From Anaerocolumna cellulosilytica (lineage in GTDB: Bacteria; Bacillota; Clostridia; Lachnospirales; Lachnospiraceae): a stretch of 64,000 bases of DNA. The stretch is taken from contig NZ_AP023367.1 in assembly GCF_014218335.1 (NCBI RefSeq), forward strand, positions 1,923,501 through 1,987,500, read 5' to 3'. The notes beneath the pieces were generated by a model. The model saw only the letters and a list, made by a program, of their open reading frames with translations, was not told where the DNA came from and made no database searches. The position numbers were made by a program, and so were the translations under genes. This document shows, one piece after another, positions 4,708-49,260 of this stretch (position 1 is its first letter; the number at the start of each line of letters is the position of its first letter).

Positions 4708-8134
<3,427 letters not shown>

Positions 8135-40151: not shown

Positions 40152-41162
40152 TTATGATTTCATCAGTAGATATAAAAAGTAGGGTGTACTTAAGACTGTT
40201 ATAATTATACCGGTTGGAATGTCGGCACCAAAACTGATGGTACGAGTTATAGTATCCGCTAAGATTACAATTACGGAGCCGGTTAATGCGGCAGCAGGAA
40301 GCAGCAGTTTGTGATTGGGGCCAACCAATCGACGGGCTAAATGCGGACTTATCATACCTACAAAAAAGAAATTACCGCCTAAAGCAACACTGCCGGAGGA
40401 TAAAGCAACGGCCGCCAAGGTTAAGAAGATAAACTCTTTTTTAACAGCCAGCCCTAGACCGGTAGCGGTTTGGTTACCTAGATTAATGGTATTTAAGGAC
40501 CTGGATTTGTAAAATACATATAAGAACAAAACTAAGGTCCAGGGAGCTAATAGGGCTATGTATTTCCAATCATCCCCCCACAAATCTCCGGCACTCCAGC
40601 GTTGTGCAAATTCCATCTGATTCCGGTCAAGTTTTAAAGTAATTAATAAGGACAGGGCATTATAGCCACTGCCTGCTGCAACACCGGTTAGGATGAGACC
40701 GGTAGGAGAAATATCCCTTCCTTTGCGGTAAGACAAAAGAAAGATAAGTGCCGCCGCAGTAACGCCCCCAGCAAAAGCTAAGAGTGGAAGAATAAATGCG
40801 GAGGAAATACCCTTAGTAGAAAAGATGGCAATGAACACCAGTACAAACAGACCTGAGCCGGAGCTTATGCCAAGGGTACCAGGACTTGCCATATCATTTT
40901 TTAATAAGCTCTGCATGATACAGCCGGAGACACCCATTCCTATGCCAACCAGCAGACCAAGAACGATTCTTGGCAACCGGAAGTCAAATACAATGAGATT
41001 CTGCTTATCAGTGCCTTTTCCAAGGAATACCTGAAACACTTCTCTGGGTGAAAGATTCATCTTACCAGAATTAATACTTATAATTGCAATTACTATAAAT
41101 AACAAAAGCATAAGGAACAGGATTCCGATTCCTTTTTTTGTTGTAAATCGTTGTTTACTCAT
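40152..41162 (-). CDS. Iron-siderophore ABC permease (FecCD family), second subunit
   Basis: 336 residues, about nine or ten membrane segments. FDFRLPRIVLGLLVGIGMGVSG near the N-terminus and FVGMISPHLARRLVGPNHK near the C-terminus are FecCD signatures. The start ATG overlaps the stop of the first permease gene by four bases (ATGA). It forms the heterodimeric channel for ferric siderophores or heme. Confidence 0.92.
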   Translation of the reverse strand: MSKQRFTTKKGIGILFLMLLLFIVIAIISINSGKMNLSPREVFQVFLGKGTDKQNLIVFDFRLPRIVLGLLVGIGMGVSGCIMQSLLKNDMASPGTLGISSGSGLFVLVFIAIFSTKGISSAFILPLLAFAGGVTAAALIFLLSYRKGRDISPTGLILTGVAAGSGYNALSLLITLKLDRNQMEFAQRWSAGDLWGDDWKYIALLAPWTLVLFLYVFYKSRSLNTINLGNQTATGLGLAVKKEFIFLTLAAVALSSGSVALGGNFFFVGMISPHLARRLVGPNHKLLLPAAALTGSVIVILADTITRTISFGADIPTGIIITVLSTPYFLYLLMKS

Positions 41163-42184
41163 TCAAATTCCCTCCTCTGTTTTCTGGCAAGGTAGAGGAA
41201 ATAAGGAACACCCACTACTGCAAAGATAACTCCTAGAGGAGTTTCGTAAGGCTTGTTTATCAACCTGCCGAAGAGGTCTGCTCCAACCAGGAATAAGGCA
41301 CCGTATAATCCGCAGGCAGGTATGATAAAGCGGTAATCAACACCAATCAGATAGCGGACTATGTGTGGTATGATAAGACCAACAAAGCTGATAGGACCTA
41401 CAATTACAACAGACATACCTGTTAAGGCCAAGACAATCAGAGTAGAAAGAGTATTAACTAGTTTTGTCCGAAGTCCGAGTCCGGCAGCTACTTCTTTTCC
41501 AAGGCTCATAACTGTAATAGATGGTGAGAGCATAATCGCACCCATAGTTCCAATAATAAATATAGGTGATACAATGAGTAATTCGTTCCATTTAGCACTG
41601 GCAGTACCACCGGCAGTCCAGAAGGAAAGAGCTTGGCCGATGTTGTATTTGATTGCCAGATATGAGCTAAAGGCACTAAATAACATGGATATGGAGATAC
41701 CTGCAAGGACAAGTTTCTGAGGGGTCATACCTCTTCGCCCAAAGGATGCTATAAAATAAGTAATTCCTGTCGTTACGGCTGCACCGATACAGGTAAAAAG
41801 CAAGGTTACTCCGTAAGTTCTGCCAGGCAGGAAAGCCAGACAGATTGCCATGGCAAAAGTTGAGCCAGAGCTGATACCCATAAGTCCTGAGTCTGCCATA
41901 GGATTTCTTGTAGTTCCCTGCATAATAGCACCAGTTATAGCAAGGCTTGCACCGACCATAATATCTGCAATGGTTCTGGGAAGTCTTAAGGTACGGATTA
42001 TTTGATGTTCTGTTAACTCTGTATTAAACTGAAAGATGGCGCCCCAGGCAGTGGACAGCTTCATTTCAGCAGCTCCAAAAGAAATGGAAGCAGCGGTTAA
42101 CAGTAGAAGCAGGATTAAACCTGCCAGCATATAAAATGTAAAATTAATGGCTCCCTTGCGAGAGGTTTGGCTTTGTACGGGCAT
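41159..42184 (-). CDS. Iron-siderophore ABC permease (FecCD family), first subunit
   Basis: 341 residues of the same family: RLPRTIADIMVGASLAITG, NPMADSGLMGISSG and FVGLIIPHIVRYLIG. First gene of a four-gene operon (permease, permease, ATPase, exporter). No Shine-Dalgarno is found in the 25 bases before its ATG; a predicted pseudoknot ends 12 bases upstream and holds a GAAAGGA. Fur-, DtxR- and AraC-type signals around this operon imply iron control. Confidence 0.92.
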   Translation of the reverse strand: MPVQSQTSRKGAINFTFYMLAGLILLLLLTAASISFGAAEMKLSTAWGAIFQFNTELTEHQIIRTLRLPRTIADIMVGASLAITGAIMQGTTRNPMADSGLMGISSGSTFAMAICLAFLPGRTYGVTLLFTCIGAAVTTGITYFIASFGRRGMTPQKLVLAGISISMLFSAFSSYLAIKYNIGQALSFWTAGGTASAKWNELLIVSPIFIIGTMGAIMLSPSITVMSLGKEVAAGLGLRTKLVNTLSTLIVLALTGMSVVIVGPISFVGLIIPHIVRYLIGVDYRFIIPACGLYGALFLVGADLFGRLINKPYETPLGVIFAVVGVPYFLYLARKQRREFE

Positions 42185-42196
42185 AGCACATTATAT

Positions 42197-42294
42197 TGCC
42201 ACAAGGTAATCGGGTGAAAGAAGTTAGTGTCCTGAATACCGAGCGGCCAGTACACTTTAAGTGGCATTCCTTTCTCTTATGTATTTTCTTTCAC
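42197..42294 (-). promoter_or_regulatory. Pseudoknot leader element, copy A (siderophore permease operon)
   Basis: On the minus strand: stem1 GTGAAAGAA (42294-42286) pairs with TTCTTTCAC (42222-42214). GAAAGGA (42274-42268) is followed one base later by stem2 TGCCAC (42266-42261), which pairs with GTGGCA (42202-42197). Between stem2 and stem1' an extra hairpin AGTGT-CTG / CAG-ACACT is inserted. The order 1-2-1'-2' is an H-type pseudoknot ending 12 bases before the start codon. Copies with the same parts are at 44222-44290, 47534-47599 and 4708-4774. Confidence 0.6.
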
Positions 42295-42349
42295 TCTTTT
42301 AGTGGGACTTAAGTTTTATCAGTCCCCGATTCCTTATAAATCATTAGCA

Positions 42350-42365
42350 GTTAGGGTTTTCTAAC
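42350..42365. promoter_or_regulatory. DtxR-like palindrome, site 1
   Basis: GTTAGGGTTTTCTAAC: perfect 5-bp arms GTTAG/CTAAC (6 bp AGTTAG/CTAACT with flanks) around six bases. On the minus strand it fills the gap between TTGCCA and TGCTAA, a possible weak promoter. The same arms and spacing recur at 43559-43574, and a DtxR-type regulator gene is nearby. Confidence 0.55.
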
Positions 42366-42485
42366 TTGGCAAATTATATCACCCGCTTATTAACCTGTCA
42401 AGACAGGGTAAAACAGCATAAGATAGACTCTTTTAGAGGCTGAATGCTGTGAAAGTACTTATTCTATAGCAGGTTTTGTGAAACT

Positions 42486-42533
42486 GTTATACTACTTAGT
42501 GTCCTAAATGGAACAGTATTGTCCTAATTTGGA
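42486..42533 (-). promoter_or_regulatory. Activator-type promoter with AraC-like direct repeats
   Basis: Minus strand: TCCAAATTAGGACAA and TCCATTTAGGACACT, two direct repeats offset by 20-21 bp (two helical turns). The second overlaps a poor -35 (GTTCCA, 42514-42509), and a good -10 TATAAC (42491-42486) follows after 17 bases. This fits activation of the permease operon by the AraC protein encoded just upstream. Confidence 0.55.
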
Positions 42534-43517
42534 CTATAAATTATACACTTTTCGGTACTCTCTGGGAGTGATACGGTGAACTTTTTTAAAAGCACCGGAG
42601 AACTTTCCAGGGCTTTCATATCCACATAAAGCGGCGATGTTCTTAATACTTAATTCATCGTCTGCAAGCAGCAAAAGGGCTTTCTTCATTTTTTCAATAT
42701 GAATATACTCCATAATAGTAATATGGAATAAACTCTTAAAACATCTTCGAAGCTTACTCGTACTGATAGCTTCCCCCATGGAAAGCTTCTCCAAAGAAGG
42801 AGGATTTAGGATATCAAGGTCTAGTATTGCTTTTATACGGTGTATTTTTTGCTCATTTTCCCAGGTGACATGATATCTTCTATTCTGATTATGCAGCCAT
42901 ACATTATTTAGATTCGTTTCAATAAAGGAGAACAACTCGCCTACCTTAAATCTATAATAGGACAGAGGCTGCCGCCCATTTCTTGCCGCCCATTTTACCT
43001 GTTCCAATAATAGCAGTATATCTTCTGTATTATAGATTTCTTCCTTCCAGTTCTTAATTTTTTCTATAGAGATATCCATCAGACCTCTAAAGAAACCGTC
43101 TCTGTCAGACCATACGGATTCTGTCAGCATAAGGCTGGTAAAACAGACATGTATTCCCGCAGGGAAAGTGATTCGCAGATTTTTTCCGGTATGGGGAATA
43201 AAATGAATCCGTGAAGTACAATGTTTTACTGACTTGCCTTGCCTTGATATGACAATATCACCTGTATCGATGCCAAGTATCCATAGAAAGGTGTCAGCAC
43301 CTGAAAAAGTATAGGTTAAATCAACGAAAGGTGTGAACCATACACTTGATACAAAAAACCCATCCTCTATATGGAAATGTGTTAACCAACCATCTCCTAG
43401 TTGCCTGGGAAGATCATAAATAATGCCGTTACCAAAAGGACGCGGAATAAAACCCATTTGGACAGCCATACTGTGAAGCCCGATAGGACCGGTGGCAGGA
43501 GAAATAGTAGTATTCAT
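42534..43517 (-). CDS. AraC-family regulator of the iron-uptake operon
   Basis: 327 residues with the double HTH at the C-terminus (about 225-325: LSMGEAISTSKLRRCFKSLF and LSIKNIAALCGYESPGKFSGAFKK). The N-terminal half is beta-rich and has no known ligand motif that I recognise. It reads into the permease operon and its gene abuts direct repeats in that operon's promoter. YbtA, PchR and Btr are AraC-type activators that sense siderophores; the same role is inferred. AAGGAG lies 12 bases before the ATG. Confidence 0.87.
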   Translation of the reverse strand: MNTTISPATGPIGLHSMAVQMGFIPRPFGNGIIYDLPRQLGDGWLTHFHIEDGFFVSSVWFTPFVDLTYTFSGADTFLWILGIDTGDIVISRQGKSVKHCTSRIHFIPHTGKNLRITFPAGIHVCFTSLMLTESVWSDRDGFFRGLMDISIEKIKNWKEEIYNTEDILLLLEQVKWAARNGRQPLSYYRFKVGELFSFIETNLNNVWLHNQNRRYHVTWENEQKIHRIKAILDLDILNPPSLEKLSMGEAISTSKLRRCFKSLFHITIMEYIHIEKMKKALLLLADDELSIKNIAALCGYESPGKFSGAFKKVHRITPREYRKVYNL

Positions 43518-43558
43518 TTGTATTGTATACTCCTTAAACTAAGATTTTTGCTGGGTAT

Positions 43559-43574
43559 GTTAGGGAAAGCTAAC
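43559..43574. promoter_or_regulatory. DtxR-like palindrome, site 2
   Basis: GTTAGGGAAAGCTAAC, same arms and spacing as site 1 at 42350-42365, located at the predicted transcription start of the AraC gene. Confidence 0.55.
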
Positions 43575-43581
43575 TGTCTAG

Positions 43582-43610
43582 ACTATAACATAGTTGAGAA
43601 CGATTATCAA
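43582..43610 (-). promoter_or_regulatory. AraC-gene promoter overlapped by a Fur-like box
   Basis: Minus strand TTGATA (43610-43605), 17 bases, TATAGT (43587-43582). A 7-1-7 palindrome TGAGAAC-G-ATTATCA (43595-43609 on the plus strand) matches 12 of 14 positions of the Fur consensus and overlaps the -35. Iron-bound Fur would repress the activator gene. Confidence 0.65.
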
Positions 43611-43688
43611 GATGATATTCCATGAAAGGGATAAGTGAAATAATTGATTAGCTGCCTTGCTGTGGCCAGTCGATTACATTAAAGTAAA

Positions 43689-43725
43689 AGAATGTATCAT
43701 TTCAACGAAACGATACATTCTTCTT
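43689..43725. terminator. Bidirectional terminator after the DtxR-type gene
   Basis: AGAATGTATC / GATACATTCT, 10-bp perfect stem with T-rich ends on both strands. Confidence 0.65.
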
Positions 43726-43802
43726 CAGGAGAGTTCCTGGCAATCGTATTATGCAATTAAAAAGTGTTGAATCTAGATTCATAGACGTATTGCTTTATTT
43801 CA

Positions 43803-44192
43803 TTACTGCTCCGTATCATTCATATATTTTTCCATTGCCCGAATGGAATCATTACTGATTACATGTTCAATGGCACAGGCATCTTCATCGGCAATAGCTT
43901 GTTCGATTTGTAATATATCTATAAAAAACTTACGTATAACATGGTGTTTTCTTGATGTGAATTTTGCTTGTTCCAGCCCTTTTTCAGTTAGGAATATTTC
44001 CTTATATTTTTCATTTGTAATCAGCCCTTTTTCGGAAAGGGTAGCCATAGCACTGTTAGTGCTTGCTTTTGTAACGCCCAGTCTTTCAGCAATGTCAGAA
44101 ACTCTCGCACCGGATCCATCCGTTGCTAATTCATAAATTGCTTCCAGATAATTTTCCATTGTAAATGTCAATTTTTCCATTTTAATACCCAT
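43803..44192 (-). CDS. DtxR/MntR-family metal-dependent regulator
   Basis: About 129 residues. HTH ARVSDIAERLGVTKASTNSAMATLSEKGLI is followed by the metal-binding and dimer domain, with HHVIRKFF and DEDACAIEHVIS; the C-x2-E-H set matches DtxR/IdeR ligands (Cys102, Glu105, His106). The C-terminal SH3-like domain is absent, as in short MntR-type proteins. Start is uncertain: ATG 44192 has AGGTG upstream, GTG 44204 or ATG 44180 are possible. Two DtxR-like palindromes in the adjacent iron genes are likely targets. Confidence 0.88.
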   Translation of the reverse strand: MGIKMEKLTFTMENYLEAIYELATDGSGARVSDIAERLGVTKASTNSAMATLSEKGLITNEKYKEIFLTEKGLEQAKFTSRKHHVIRKFFIDILQIEQAIADEDACAIEHVISNDSIRAMEKYMNDTEQ

Positions 44193-44221
44193 TGCATAAC
44201 ACACCTAGTCACAAATGTGTT

Positions 44222-44290
44222 ACTGCCACAATAAAAGATGTGAAAGAATCAATAAGTGGCAGTCCTTTCTTTTTCTGGATTTTCTTTCAC
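44222..44290 (-). promoter_or_regulatory. Pseudoknot leader element, copy B (DtxR-type gene)
   Basis: Minus strand: stem1 GTGAAAGAA (44290-44282) pairs with TTCTTTCAC (44248-44240). GAAAGGA precedes stem2, here extended to ACTGCCAC (44263-44256), pairing with GTGGCAGT (44229-44222). Linkers match copies A and C in length. It ends 17 bases before a GTG and 29 before the ATG of the regulator. Confidence 0.55.
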
Positions 44291-44335
44291 ACTATTTCCA
44301 TTAGATATCGCAAGTTTACCTACCAATCTGGTATT

Positions 44336-44400
44336 CCGAAACATGCCACAGAGCTTTAAAAGATGTGGTGTTTTAAATTTTTTAGTATGTTTATTCACAA
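44336..44400. other. Hairpin in the 44.3-44.65 kb gap
   Basis: GCCACAGAGC… / …GATGTGGT stem followed by a T-rich stretch on the plus strand; possible terminator or leader hairpin. Apart from it the region 44291-44656 holds no recognisable gene or promoter pair. Confidence 0.25.
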
Positions 44401-44656
44401 ATGTTAGTCTCTTCAATAAACACTATTGACCGCTTTCAAAATTCGAGTCCAATGATGTAGCAAGATAATAAATCGGTCTGCTTATTTAAGTAAAATCATT
44501 ATAGATACCATAAGTTTAACAGTTTACACAGCAAAAATCAATATTCAGTGGAAGTCTTTTCGTTTTCTTTTAAGCCAGTTTCTGCTATAATACTACAATC
44601 TGGGTTTACTTAATGTTTGTTTAAGTGTGTGCAAAGTACACGGATGGGAGTAAAAG

Positions 44657-45142
44657 ATGATAATACGAGAAGCTAAGCCTGCGGAAATCAGACAACTATT
44701 AGTAGAAGGTCACAAATGTTGGCATAAGGGAAGAAGCTTAGAAAAGTATTCTGCGGACAATCGAAAAGAAGAGGAGTATGGAACCAGATATGTTGCAGAG
44801 GTTGACGGGCAAGTTGTAAGTTCACTGATACTGTTAAGATTTGGTGAAATCATTACATGTCCGGCTTACGGAATCGGATCGGTATTAACAATGCCTGGCT
44901 TTAAAAAGAAGGGGTATGCCAGTGAGCTAATAAAGGCTGTTCTGCAACAGTTAGACTCAAAGAAAGCGTTGGTTTTTTTGTATTCTGAAATCAATCCGTT
45001 ATTTTATGACAGGCTGGGATTTCATAAATTACCGGACAGACTTCAGAGAAATACCGCCTGTTCCTGCATGGTGTTATGTCAGGAGGAGGCAGGGGAATTC
45101 TTAATAAAAGCGGAGCTTAAGGACATACCAGATTACTTTTAA
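44657..45142 (+). CDS. GNAT-family N-acetyltransferase
   Basis: 161 residues. Acetyl-CoA-binding segment SVLTMPGFKKKGYASELIKAVL and the late LFYDRLGFHKLP are diagnostic for GNAT proteins. The N-terminal MIIREAKPAEIRQLL is also typical. GGGAG precedes the ATG. A hairpin AGTGTC / GACACT lies between it and the convergent nuclease gene. Substrate unknown. Confidence 0.82.
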   Translation: MIIREAKPAEIRQLLVEGHKCWHKGRSLEKYSADNRKEEEYGTRYVAEVDGQVVSSLILLRFGEIITCPAYGIGSVLTMPGFKKKGYASELIKAVLQQLDSKKALVFLYSEINPLFYDRLGFHKLPDRLQRNTACSCMVLCQEEAGEFLIKAELKDIPDYF

Positions 45143-45177
45143 ATTACATTTGTGACTGGTGCAGTGTCTTTTGGACA

Positions 45178-46188
45178 CTAGAGATATATAACCATTTCTT
45201 CCGGCAGGGACAAGATTTCGGAAAAAAGGATATCCCTAAAATCAATGGTCATTTTATCGGTTAAAGGCAGAGCAGAGGTTACTGAAAGAAACCATTCTTT
45301 CTGAGGAGTGTCTTCTGTTTTTAGTTTATCCACTAAAAGATTGCCTTTGTTTATGAAATTGGCAAGACTATTTTTATTAAATGCTTTATAAAGTTTTTTA
45401 TGAATCATAGTTCCGTTTTTTATGTAAAACAACTTTATACCTTTGGGAGTAGGCAGTTTTAACACAATGTTACGAGTCATCAAAGCTGTGAATCCTTCAA
45501 TACCTTTCTGCAAATGTCTAATACAGGGGAGCAAATCACGGTACATGGAAGCAGTCTCAAACCGAAATTCCGAAGAGGCTTCCATCATTTTTAACTGAAT
45601 TACTTCAATTAATTTCGAGAGTTCTCCCGGTGTATCAAAGAGTTCCAACAGCACTTGCCTGTTGTCTATATACTCCTGCCGGTTCATAGTGAGGGGAAGC
45701 AGGTTATACGTAAGTTGATAAGAGCTCTCATTTTTGGTAATTGGATATATGTTTTTTAAGGAGGTAACAATATCTGTTAAGACGGACCGGCTGCGAAAGG
45801 GACCATAACAAGTACCTTCTCTCTCGTGAATAACTGCTAGTGGATTATGCATATTATAAGCATTAACCTTAAGGTATACGTATTGTTGATCATTCTTCAT
45901 CTGAGCGTTAAAAAAAGGCTTGTAATATTTAATTAATTCACATTCTAACAGTCGGGCTTCTAAATGGGTATCTGTTACTTCGTAATTAATTTCGGCTATC
46001 AGGTTAACCATTTTTTTAACCTTTTCCCAGGCGGGTGTCTTGGTAAAGTAAGATTTTACCCTTTTCTTCAAACATTTACTTTTGCCTATGTATATAATAT
46101 TACCGTTCTTATCAAGCATTTTATAAATGCCCGGCAGTTCTGGCAGACTGCTCAAACGTGCTTTGATAGTATCCTTTATCTCCGACAT
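45178..46188 (-). CDS. GIY-YIG nuclease, UvrC N-terminal half with UVR motif
   Basis: 336 residues. LPGIYKML…NIIYIGKSKCLKKRVKSYF is the UvrC GIY-YIG domain, and residues about 185-225 (LIEVIQLKMMEASSEFRFETASMYRDLL) form a UVR helical hairpin. The RNase-H-like second nuclease and HhH domains of full UvrC (about 600 residues) are missing. It resembles Cho-type excision nucleases making the 3' incision, yet keeps a UVR motif. It may back up UvrC or have another role. Confidence 0.85.
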   Translation of the reverse strand: MSEIKDTIKARLSSLPELPGIYKMLDKNGNIIYIGKSKCLKKRVKSYFTKTPAWEKVKKMVNLIAEINYEVTDTHLEARLLECELIKYYKPFFNAQMKNDQQYVYLKVNAYNMHNPLAVIHEREGTCYGPFRSRSVLTDIVTSLKNIYPITKNESSYQLTYNLLPLTMNRQEYIDNRQVLLELFDTPGELSKLIEVIQLKMMEASSEFRFETASMYRDLLPCIRHLQKGIEGFTALMTRNIVLKLPTPKGIKLFYIKNGTMIHKKLYKAFNKNSLANFINKGNLLVDKLKTEDTPQKEWFLSVTSALPLTDKMTIDFRDILFSEILSLPEEMVIYL

Positions 46189-46506
46189 TTTTCACCTATG
46201 CTTTACAAATAGTATTCTCAATTTATATAAAACATAATATAATAAAACTTAATCTGTTACAAGCTTGTCTTACAAATCGATGGAATTCTCAACTAAAGCA
46301 GGGGTTGAGTTGCGCTAAAATTAAGAAATTATATAACTCAAGTGCTGCTTGCTTCCTTTTTTTAGCTCTGAAACTATAATGGAAGTATGGTTGCACTAAC
46401 GTAAGTTTAGAAGTGACTAAATAAAGTAGATAATTGCAAAACACGTTGTTTATAAAAAGATTGTTTGGCAGTTGTCTGCTTAATAAAATGTAAGAAGGAG
46501 AAAGAT

Positions 46507-47346
46507 ATGTTTAATACAAGTGAAGTAGGAAGAAAAATTGCCAGTTTAAGAAAAGAGAAGAACCTTACACAAATGGAACTTGCAGATATGATAGGAGTAA
46601 GTTATCAGGCGGTTAGTAATTGGGAGAGAGGGAATTCTATGCCGGATATTTCAAAGCTGCCGGAGCTGGTGAATTTTTTAAACTGTAGTATTGACGAACT
46701 TTTATGCAATGAAAAAGAAGGGCTGCTGGTAGAACATATAATCAAAGGAGATTCCGCAGACTATGTAAGAGAAGAAAAAGTTACAATTAGAGAAATAGCG
46801 GATACGGCACCTTTATTAAGACCAAGTCAGACGGAAACCCTTTTGGATACTATTATTAAAGAAAACGAAGACAAATTTTCCATAAAGGAATTAATTATGA
46901 TTGCTCCCTTTGTTGGAGAAAAGTATCTGGATGAATTCGTAAAGCGGATAGACAGTGTAGAACATATAAAAGAGTTAACAGGTCTGGCACCTTTTTTAAA
47001 CAAAGAATCTCTGGATTACTTGGCAGGTCTGGCCACTCAGGTGGGGAGAATCAAAGATTTAATCAGCCTGGCACCCTTCTTAAGTAAGGAGACTCTGGAT
47101 GGTATTGTAAAAAGATGTGAGGATGATGGAAATATAAAAGATATAATCGGACTTGCTCCATTTCTGGCAAAAGAAACCTTGGATACGATTGTTTTAAAGG
47201 CAATGGAGCACGATGATATGAGACAGTGTACAGGTTTGTATCCCTTCTTAGGAAAGGACACGTTACAAAAGTTAGCGGATGAAATAGTGAAAAAGCATGG
47301 CTTTAAGGAAATTAGCTCTATGTTACCTTTTTTATCTGATAAATAA
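46507..47346 (+). CDS. XRE-family regulator with six 28-residue repeats
   Basis: 279 residues from ATG 46507, seven bases after AGAAGGAG. N-terminal HTH_3 (about 8-66: IASLRKEKNLTQMELADMIG, SYQAVSNWERG). The C-terminal half is a tandem repeat with exact 28-residue period; Pro-Phe pairs occur at 134, 162, 190, 218, 246 and 274 in the frame LAPFLxKExLDxxV, preceded by a diverged APLL at 101. The repeats probably form an alpha-solenoid that senses a protein or ligand. It lies just upstream of an ABC exporter pair in the same direction, its likely target. Confidence 0.87.
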   Translation: MFNTSEVGRKIASLRKEKNLTQMELADMIGVSYQAVSNWERGNSMPDISKLPELVNFLNCSIDELLCNEKEGLLVEHIIKGDSADYVREEKVTIREIADTAPLLRPSQTETLLDTIIKENEDKFSIKELIMIAPFVGEKYLDEFVKRIDSVEHIKELTGLAPFLNKESLDYLAGLATQVGRIKDLISLAPFLSKETLDGIVKRCEDDGNIKDIIGLAPFLAKETLDTIVLKAMEHDDMRQCTGLYPFLGKDTLQKLADEIVKKHGFKEISSMLPFLSDK

Positions 47347-47456
47347 TTCTAAATAGTAAAGCATCACGAACATTTGTGCGAAAAAAAACCAAATGACACA
47401 TAGTTGTCTTATATCCTATGTTATACTATTGAAGAAAAAAATTATGATACCAAGGA

Positions 47457-47521
47457 TAGTAAAGGTTCTTTGCCGGAAGTTATTCATGAACTTATGATAG
47501 TACCGGCAAAGACTTTTACTA
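47457..47521 (+). terminator. Long hairpin between the XRE gene and the ABC exporters
   Basis: TAGTAAAGGTTCTTTGCCGG and CCGGCAAAGACTTTTACTA pair with few mismatches around a 26-base loop. No T tract follows at once, so it may terminate weakly or belong to the exporter leader. Confidence 0.45.
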
Positions 47522-47533
47522 ATGGCTAATGAA

Positions 47534-47599
47534 AGTTAAGAGAAAATACCGGATGAGAAAGGATGCCACAAATAAATTTTTAACTATTTAACCGTGGCA
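47534..47599 (+). promoter_or_regulatory. Pseudoknot leader element, copy C (ABC exporter pair)
   Basis: Stem1 AGTTAAGAG (47534-47542) pairs with TTTTTAACT (47577-47585). Then AAAATACC, GAAAGGA (47557-47563) directly followed by stem2 TGCCAC (47564-47569), pairing with GTGGCA (47594-47599). The ATG is 11 bases further on and has no local Shine-Dalgarno. Stem1 differs from copies A and B in sequence but is still complementary, which is covariation support. Confidence 0.6.
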
Positions 47600-47610
47600 A
47601 GTGTGTTTAC

Positions 47611-49260
47611 ATGAAAGAATTACTATTTCGAAGAAAAGCAAAATTCATTCAATATCTTTTTGCTACCTTCTTGTTTATCATTGACCATTTTGCGCAAATC
47701 GGTCTTTTTTCTCTAATATTGGGAGCAATCGAAAGAGGTGATACAGGGTATTATAAAACTGTAATCTTAATCACTATAGGATTCATTATTTATTCTCCCT
47801 TGAATTTTCTTATTTCCAGAATGCTTAGAATACGCTACATGAGAGATACCATTCTGGATGTAAGAAAGCAAGCTTTTGATAAAATAATTCATATGACCTT
47901 TAAGCAATATTCACAAAAATCAAAGGATGTATACATATCTAATTTAATCAATGATATTAATACTTTTGAAAACAAATTTTTTCTAAGTCTTCTTAATTTC
48001 TTAATTAACGCCGGTATGTTTGTAATTTCATTAGTAATTTTAATTGTATTGGATTATAAACTAGCAATAGGTATGTTATTGTTTTCTGCTTTTTTATTTT
48101 TGTTAGCTGGTTTTTTTACAAAGAAGTCCACTGCTTTGGAACAGGAGGTTTCTACTGCTAATGAGCAGTTTACTACAGAAATGTCCAATACATTTCAAGG
48201 CCTGGAAATATTAAAACTGAATCACATCGAAGAAAAATTTAAAGAAAAAAGCCTGGATACGATAGGACGCCTGGAACGCAAAAAATTTGCAGCTAATGTA
48301 TTTACAGATATGCAGATGAAAATAGTCTGGATTCTTGCCTTTGTAGCATCGGTAGCAGCATTAATATATCTGACATATGGATTTTTAGGTGGGATGACTT
48401 TAGCGCTTGGCGGACTTTTATTTCAGCTTTGTACGTCCATCAGTAGATATTTGATAAATGCCTTTCCTATGTGGAATCAGATGAAGGCCTCCATCAGTAT
48501 CTATAATAAGATTGCAGAACCGGAAGAGGAAACTTTGTCAAACCTAAAGGGTACGAAACCGTTTCATTTTGAAAAGAAAATCAAAGTATCCAATGTTAAT
48601 TTTTATTATGATAAAAAACAGATTTTAAAAAATGCATCCTTTACCATAGAAAAGGGCAGAAAATATTTGATTAAAGGTGCAAGTGGTGCAGGAAAATCAA
48701 CACTTATGAATCTACTTGCTATGTCCATTGATGATTATAGCGGTGTCATTGAAGCGGACGGAGCTAATTATAAAGAACTATCTGAAAAATCCTTCCATGA
48801 CAAAGTGGCTTTTATCTATCAGGATGTATTTTTATTTGAAGATACCATACAAAATAACATTACTTTATATAAAGACATACCCATGGAACAGATACAATAT
48901 GCAGCAAAGGTATGCGGTCTGGAGGCTGTTATACAAGATAAGAAGAATGGTATTCATGAGATGCTGACGGAAAATGGTAAGAATCTTTCCGGCGGGCAGC
49001 GTCAAAGAATATCTATAGCTAGGGCAATTGCCAAAAATGCAGAGATTCTCTTTGTAGATGAAGGGACATCCAGCTTAAATGAAGAACTTGGTAAGGAGAT
49101 TGAGCAAGTATTTTTGGAACTGGATAATACGGTAATTGCTATCAGTCACCGCTTTTATGAAGGGGTTACCGATAAGTATGATTATGTTCTGGAAATAAAA
49201 AACGGACTGATTCATACCTTCCCTGCAAAAGACTATTTTGATGAGGTGATTACATGTTAA
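47611..49260 (+). CDS. ABC exporter, subunit 1 of a heterodimer
   Basis: 549 residues: six-helix membrane domain (about 1-310) and ATPase with Walker A GASGAGKST, signature LSGGQRQR and Walker B ILFVDEGTSSLN. The start codon has no nearby Shine-Dalgarno but follows a predicted pseudoknot. Its stop overlaps the next ATG (ATGTTAA), so the pair is translationally coupled. XRE regulator upstream suggests inducible efflux of a drug or peptide. Confidence 0.87.
   Translation: MKELLFRRKAKFIQYLFATFLFIIDHFAQIGLFSLILGAIERGDTGYYKTVILITIGFIIYSPLNFLISRMLRIRYMRDTILDVRKQAFDKIIHMTFKQYSQKSKDVYISNLINDINTFENKFFLSLLNFLINAGMFVISLVILIVLDYKLAIGMLLFSAFLFLLAGFFTKKSTALEQEVSTANEQFTTEMSNTFQGLEILKLNHIEEKFKEKSLDTIGRLERKKFAANVFTDMQMKIVWILAFVASVAALIYLTYGFLGGMTLALGGLLFQLCTSISRYLINAFPMWNQMKASISIYNKIAEPEEETLSNLKGTKPFHFEKKIKVSNVNFYYDKKQILKNASFTIEKGRKYLIKGASGAGKSTLMNLLAMSIDDYSGVIEADGANYKELSEKSFHDKVAFIYQDVFLFEDTIQNNITLYKDIPMEQIQYAAKVCGLEAVIQDKKNGIHEMLTENGKNLSGGQRQRISIARAIAKNAEILFVDEGTSSLNEELGKEIEQVFLELDNTVIAISHRFYEGVTDKYDYVLEIKNGLIHTFPAKDYFDEVITC

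Follow-up and report, generated by a model that had tools for sequence, protein, structure and literature searches.

A dispersed pseudoknot element of Anaerocolumna and its relatives that probably bridges a displaced Shine-Dalgarno sequence to the start codon

The preQ1, SAM-II and fluoride riboswitches are H-type pseudoknots, and REP/BIME elements with RAYT transposases are short dispersed elements that bear hairpins. In this study, we analysed 64,000 nucleotides (nt) of the Anaerocolumna cellulosilytica genome (contig NZ_AP023367.1, positions 1,923,501 to 1,987,500; hereafter the window) and describe a leader element of about 105 nt, in which an H-type pseudoknot lies between a Shine-Dalgarno (SD) motif, GAAAGGA, and the start codon. 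RNA structure in phage T4 genes 38 and 25 is reported to shorten the distance from SD to AUG from 22 to 5 nt and from 27 to 11 nt, and destabilising this structure to lower initiation (PMC3014915). In the Anaerocolumna element, too, folded RNA would separate a distant SD from the AUG, as proposed here from sequence; the T4 cases are two single phage genes with simple secondary structure, whereas we find a pseudoknot with a third hairpin (P3) in more than 100 copies per genome, and an SD that sits in the loop of stem 1 (P1) and is apparently split. The TAACTGA repeats of Beggiatoaceae are reported to form 169 sets in a single genome; most stand just 5' of start codons, without a functional theme and with few ordinary SDs, and a post-transcriptional regulator was suggested to bind them (PMC4679880). 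They share with the present element the many copies before start codons of unrelated genes and the scarcity of ordinary SDs; they differ in being short direct repeats with little SD character. We consider it likely that these leaders are dispersed copies of a structured ribosome-binding site (RBS) cassette, in which a fold bridges the SD to the AUG and which has been gained and lost between species. The bridging principle alone has its precedent in T4 genes 38 and 25; to our knowledge a dispersed family of such size is without precedent.

A first-pass annotation had described four pseudoknot leaders in the window. A script search of both strands for GAAAGGA within an H-type pseudoknot recovered all four (copies A to D, Table 1), with the same stem sequences and, for A, C and D, the same coordinates; only the end of copy B, which had been placed at 44222, lay one base too far. 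The extra hairpin ascribed to copy A was located as well. A fifth script match (61144-61077, minus strand) has a stem 1 of 6 base pairs and was taken as chance. The motif AAATNC-N4..14-GAAAGGA occurs four times in the window, where 0.24 occurrences would be expected; copies A, B and C account for three of the four. We trained a covariance model (R1) on 26 copies of the same genome with stem 1 as its sole structure. Within the window it found exactly the four places, copy D at E = 0.0024 among the best 150 candidates scored. In the whole genome (5.43 Mb) there are at least 144 R1 matches at E <= 1 and at least 115 at E <= 0.001, so that the further homologues by which the four leaders were to be judged are abundant, here and in related genomes. 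All copy numbers are lower bounds, as the best 150 candidates per genome were scored in small searches and the best 24 or 12 in large ones. The pattern GAAAGGA-N0..4-TGCCAC-N15..45-GTGGCA has 40 occurrences across the entire genome, and its reversed form has none.

The element consists of the P1 5' strand, an A-rich linker, the SD GAAAGGA, the 5' strand of the pseudoknot stem 2 (S2), a loop, the P1 3' strand (P1'), a further loop, the S2 3' strand (S2'), usually P3, and then GCAAT-GGGTG-N5-AUG. Among the 26 model sequences, 20 double-sided changed cells were counted against 6.6 in shuffles; stem 2 is invariant here because these copies were selected by it. We aligned 96 copies of the same genome, taken from regions that the exact stem-2 pattern had missed plus a few exact copies there, and 84 copies from other genomes. 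For P1 and S2 together, the former gave 113 double-changed cells against 41.0 in shuffles (reached in 0/500; maximum 65 in slid controls) and the latter 57 against 12.7 (slid maximum 26), counts that lean towards P1 because both alignments were fitted to a model that contains P1 and not stem 2. The compensatory changes among the 96 copies include G-U pairs. Stem 2 pairs in 91.4% and 93.2% of cells in the 96-copy and 84-copy sets. Between genera it is rewritten with pairing kept, as judged by eye: TGCCATAT/ATATGGCA in G054 (L073), TGCCC/GGGCA in G131 and G548 (in G131 with 6 pattern matches and 0 in the reversed control), CAAACAC/GTGTTTG in G111, CCAAAGG/CCTTTGG in G029, where 5/7 pattern matches look genuine and the other two are chance matches in coding sequence, and, outside the family, TGTCAC/GTGACA in L359. 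Thus, stem 1 covaries strongly; the pseudoknot stem does so more weakly within the genus and has its stronger support in the rewriting between genera. The selected RNA structure with compensatory change that the first-pass annotation had claimed is borne out, and both the RNA structure and the RBS position discussed below are well supported.

Many copies carry extra modules, namely arrays of P1 hairpins, hairpins inserted after P1 and before the end of stem 2, and a hairpin upstream of P1. Head-to-tail arrays, with GAAAGGA and TGCCAC in each unit, were seen at L302, L251 and L336 (named contigs) and at L187 and L193 in A. aminovalerica DSM 1283 (G024); they end in a single final stem 2 and may have grown by slippage. 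Two inserted hairpins recur between P1' and S2', one of TGTGAAACTTGTTTCACA type and one of AATAGAATGC...GCATTCTATT type (L222, L255, L297, L226 and L295, L315, L324). An upstream hairpin of GATGCCGC...GCGGCATCATG type stands just 5' of P1 in a subset of copies (L221, L245, L256, L318, L331). In one copy, L361 (G402), P1 closes on itself, and the SD and the S2 5' strand are gone, with S2', P3 and GCAATGGGTATAAAAAATG retained; this copy is apparently decayed or deleted.

The element is tied to start codons, a relation that the first-pass annotation missed together with P3, the nature of GAAAGGA as a displaced SD, the diversity of the genes and the dispersal. A real-looking open reading frame (ORF) begins within 110 nt on the same strand for 104/115 of the best copies, against 261/4000 random positions, in a test that by construction reports copies in the direction of the gene. 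Spacing and SD statistics are restricted to copies followed by a long ORF, which leaves 117 of the best 125 and, in further analyses, 110 and 76. P3 reaches a score of at least 7 in 75/117 copies, against 20% of shuffles; a hairpin score of at least 5 after S2' does not discriminate, because the median of shuffled sequences is 5.5. An in-frame ATG follows 13-16 nt past the hairpin in 68/113 copies, at this score of at least 5 that shuffles also reach. In the 150 nt upstream of the element, no 7-mer other than A+T-rich promoter-like words was strongly enriched and no shared motif appeared; a conserved upstream domain was rejected on this ground. Several copies directly abut the end of the upstream gene, as seen by eye. 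These observations bear on a role in transcription or mRNA stability, as an attenuator, an antiterminator or a stabiliser resembling a 5' cap. Leader position and stable stems would suit such a role, yet the upstream sequence is unconserved, copies stand directly after the preceding gene, and the spacing is fixed to the AUG and not to a promoter or terminator, which makes this explanation very improbable.

The sequence GAAAGGA matches the 5' half of AGAAAGGAGGTG, which we take to be complementary to the usual 16S tail. This tail was not found when the genome was searched twice and a set of 373 loci once, where the rRNA may be masked, and the anti-SD used here is the assumed standard one. At the ordinary position (-20 to -4) the leader genes bind the anti-SD weakly, with a median of -5.5 kcal/mol for 117 genes against -9.7 kcal/mol in a comparison set of 48 other window ORFs (p = 2e-14). 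The GAAAGGA region binds at -10.0 kcal/mol, as strongly as an ordinary SD. In 92/106 copies, 1-2 nt separate GAAAGGA from the S2 core, and in pseudoknot-free folds the motif is unpaired with a median probability of 0.81 (above 0.5 in 72/92 copies). Thus the SD is predicted to be distant from the AUG in sequence and near it once the RNA is folded. The P1 and S2 pseudoknot, with P3, would fold away the RNA lying between SD and AUG, so that a 30S subunit could use an SD tens of nt upstream. In some copies an ATG stands just 3' of GAAAGGA; a reading of these as peptides was rejected by eye because frames and lengths vary and the SD would touch the ATG.

An open SD also bears on a translational on/off switch, in which TTCTTTC of the P1 3' strand would pair either with GAAAGAA of the P1 5' strand, leaving the SD free, or with the SD GAAAGGA, hiding it. 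Such pairing of TTCTTTC with GAAAGGA (7 base pairs, one G-U) is possible in most typical copies. P1 is longer, however, and its 5' strand is made first; moreover, the SD is open in the pseudoknot-free folds, and copy C and the G029 variant retain only part of the complementarity. We regard a switch of this kind as rather unlikely.

The SD of the common form is apparently split: AGAAAGGA precedes the fold and GG(T/G)TG follows it, and these are the two halves of AGAAAGGAGGTG. In 76 copies the joined halves bind at -12.95 kcal/mol; the first half by itself reaches -9.1, and joining it to control heptamers gives -10.15 (p = 2e-12). The second GG lies at -10 to -8, and the second GG of ordinary SDs in this genome mostly at -13 to -7. 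The fold would probably bring the halves before and after it together, so that both could pair with the 30S subunit at once. The G029 variant has a hairpin inside the pseudoknot and an AUG about 10-13 nt past stem 2; by eye, no second half was seen in it and the first half is the longer AAAGGAG. In the A. cellulosilytica genome, ATGGGTGTAAATATG is common before the start codon; part of the copies have an in-frame upstream ATG 12 nt 5' of the likely start and could give a protein beginning MGxxM.

The leaders stand before functionally unrelated genes at more than 100 places. Downstream products include EutC, GlyS, PtsI, an MntR family regulator, a ClpA/B family protein, SpeE, PepT, GpmI, Hom, PhoU, a FecCD permease, a glycosyl hydrolase of family 1 and others. 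We compared 34 leader proteins with family models, 30 by NCBIfam (11 of these 30 have no NCBIfam match at 1e-15) and 4 by Pfam, and found no common pathway or transport function among the 34. An iron or siderophore riboswitch was considered, as copies A to C lie near metal and ABC transporter genes, and was rejected since the other copies do not. Any riboswitch that the first-pass annotation may have implied is likewise not supported. Its statement that the leaders match no riboswitch class holds against Rfam release 15, which gave no match over any leader examined in the whole window at gathering score, in 41900-47700 at E <= 5 and at 10 loci at E <= 1 (for copy D at gathering score only). 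A regulated leader, either a riboswitch or a site recognised by a global RNA-binding protein, would open or close the pseudoknot on a signal and so tune a large regulon. The conserved single strands (the AAAAT linker and GAAAGGA) next to conserved stems would fit this, as would an H-type fold like that of several riboswitches, and extra hairpins and tandem copies could add inputs. The element shares with H-type pseudoknot riboswitches a pseudoknot in the mRNA leader near the RBS; it differs from them in lacking an Rfam match and a common pathway, in a fold that lies between SD and AUG, and in unconserved positions, and the sets of leader genes differ among congeners, unlike a metabolite regulon. 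We judge a regulated leader of this kind to be unlikely; a regulatory role in addition to bridging is possible.

The element occurs in 15/15 genomes of the genus, with 2 to at least 141 R1 matches at E <= 0.001. In a sample of the family, 13/200 genomes matched at E <= 0.01 (own genome counted), in a sample of the order 7/392 at E <= 0.001, of which three belong to another family, and in a sample of the phylum 1/398, which is the own genome (0/397 others). Robinsoniella and a few other Lachnospirales carry it. The strict-pattern matches listed include A. sedimenticola, two further Anaerocolumna species, Clostridium sp. KNHs205 and several metagenome bins. A viral collection yielded a single strict-pattern match (L365, putative viral contig IMGVR_UViG_2585428173_000002), 5' of an ORF; with this one match, carriage by phages was rejected. 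No description of the element was found in the open-licence papers searched, and the main texts of PMC11109978 and PMC8632094 do not contain 'Lachno' or 'Anaerocolumna'.

Positions of the element differ between species. A. aminovalerica DSM 1283 and R. peoriensis (G179), both members of the Lachnospiraceae, were recognised by stretches identical to named contigs. For A. aminovalerica we used 55 places among the matches listed and took in 40/41 remaining regions. Only 6/52 of its leader genes match one of 130 leader genes of A. cellulosilytica at E <= 1e-10 (own copies from rank 134 downwards left out), and only 2/52, phoU and nusB, reach at least 75% identity; by eye, polA joins them as a third shared leader gene (L216; own copy 139). 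Among 81 distinct homologous gene pairs (60-99% identity), the partner has the leader signature in 51 and an ordinary SD without leader in 12; 18 were unclassified, some of which show leader pieces by eye. For example, a gene that we call ACT-domain-like from its N-terminus (95.6% protein identity) has the leader in Anaerocolumna sp. AGMB13025, and in two others GGAGG-ATATAACA-ATG or GGAGG-ATAAAAA-ATG without leader. The tpiA leader (L280) may be idle, because it stands just upstream of the native SD. Inside the element, twelve Robinsoniella copies agree with their majority sequence at 83-100%; the figure outside is about 50%, except for 67% over the 10 nt that adjoin the left end. The high agreement continues as far as the ATG, and some copies lie in 106-nt tandem units. 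Near-identical Robinsoniella copies precede unrelated genes; together with the pairs above, near-identical copies thus occur at unrelated sites, and both filled and empty sites exist. The flanks of filled and empty sites have diverged too far to place the ends of the element. Because the downstream genes have no functional relation, congeners carry the element at different places, and an ordinary SD stands before some homologues that lack the leader, we read the element as a dispersed RBS cassette and not as the riboswitch of one pathway. It would have been copied as a unit before many unrelated genes, replacing their ordinary SD, and gained and lost between species.

Besides the lean of the covariation counts towards P1, the undiscriminating hairpin score and the assumed anti-SD, several results weigh against this explanation. 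Stem 2 varies little within the genus, with only 8 and 7 double-changed cells in the 96-copy and 84-copy sets. Copies A and C have neither P3 nor a clear second SD half, a strong ordinary SD stands at the AUG in 12/110 copies, and the strengths of the first and second SD halves show no compensation (rho -0.02, p = 0.84). Many positions are stable, because 51/81 pairs carry the leader on both sides, though different species are not proven for all pairs. SD remnants just upstream are modestly enriched (20/117 named copies against 5-13 elsewhere; 14/125 own copies against 2-12); we keep them as a hint and not as proof that the element inserted between SD and AUG. Finally, a Y1 transposase (PF01797), the one mobilising family tested, occurs in 7/15 genomes of the genus, and none was found in G209 (at least 141 matches), G201 (at least 88) or G210 (at least 87).

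Y1 transposases as the mover are thus not supported, since their presence does not track copy number. In this the element is unlike REP/BIME, as the relative with the most matches has no Y1 transposase and the copies stand at start codons. A stronger version of the cassette explanation is a mobile element that resides in ribosome-binding sites and is tolerated as its transcript folds aside, the pseudoknot and P3 restoring the SD-AUG spacing and even the split SD. We hold this only tentatively; if true, it would be a translation-level counterpart of the self-splicing intron, without splicing. A selfish repeat with no role in translation, whose hairpins serve DNA transposition and whose start-codon sites are merely tolerated insertions, would account for the near-identical dispersed copies and tandem units in Robinsoniella and for positions that differ between species. 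It would leave unexplained that copies keep to ORF starts where the ordinary SD of the host is weak, that the positions of S2 and SD are constrained, that compensatory changes include G-U pairs as is typical of RNA, and that Y1 transposases do not follow copy number; we consider it improbable.

If the cassette explanation holds, a substantial number of genes in these bacteria are translated from an SD that does not adjoin their start codon in the linear sequence, and predictors of start sites that read only the last 20 nt would miss it. A ribosome-binding site could then be a dispersed, copyable RNA module. It would offer a natural test of how the 30S subunit accommodates folded RNA between SD and AUG, and a ready-made portable RBS for engineering.

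Table 1. Features of the four copies in the window (window coordinates).
Copy	Feature	Position	Strand	Remark
A	whole	42294-42197	-	pseudoknot script
A	P1 5' strand	42286..42294	-	GTGAAAGAA
A	displaced SD	42268..42276	-	GAGAAAGGA; 1 nt 5' of S2; anti-SD binding analysis
A	S2 5' strand	42261..42266	-	TGCCAC
A	additional hairpin	42226..42256	-	loop between S2 and P1'
A	P1 3' strand	42214..42222	-	TTCTTTCAC
A	S2 3' strand	42197..42202	-	GTGGCA; likely start codon 12 nt on; no P3 seen
A	gene	41159..42184	-	FecCD-type permease
B	whole	44290-44224	-	or to 44223 with stem 2 one pair longer
B	P1 5' strand	44282..44290	-	GTGAAAGAA
B	displaced SD	44263..44270	-	AGAAAGGA
B	S2 5' strand	44256..44261	-	TGCCAC
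B	P1 3' strand	44240..44248	-	TTCTTTCAC
B	S2 3' strand	44224..44229	-	GTGGCA
B	P3	44196..44223	-	GTAACACA...TGTGTTAT; immediately 3' of S2'
B	putative second SD half	44187..44190	-	GGGT; 6 nt 5' of likely start ATG
B	gene	43803..44180	-	iron-dependent repressor / MntR family regulator; likely ATG 44180 (ORF list: GTG 44204)
C	whole	47534-47599	+	pseudoknot script
C	P1 5' strand	47534..47542	+	AGTTAAGAG
C	displaced SD	47555..47563	+	GAGAAAGGA; abutting S2
C	S2 5' strand	47564..47569	+	TGCCAC
C	P1 3' strand	47577..47585	+	TTTTTAACT
C	S2 3' strand	47594..47599	+	GTGGCA; ATG 11 nt on; no P3
C	gene	47611..49260	+	ABC transporter, fused membrane and ATPase domains
D	whole	4708-4774	+	pseudoknot script
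D	P1 5' strand	4708..4718	+	GGTTGGAGGAA
D	displaced SD	4725..4733	+	AAGAAAGGA; 4 nt 5' of S2
D	S2 5' strand	4738..4743	+	CCGCCT
D	P1 3' strand	4748..4758	+	TTCTTTCAACC
D	S2 3' strand	4769..4774	+	AGGCGG; then TATGGGTATTAATT (4775-4788), then ATG
D	gene	4789..6204	+	glycosyl hydrolase family 1

The only Rfam matches in the window at gathering score were two known leaders elsewhere: a PreQ1 riboswitch (RF00522, 44.0 bits) at 871-915 on the plus strand, immediately 5' of an ORF starting at 924, and a T-box leader (RF00230, 98.3 bits) at 32768-32549 on the minus strand.

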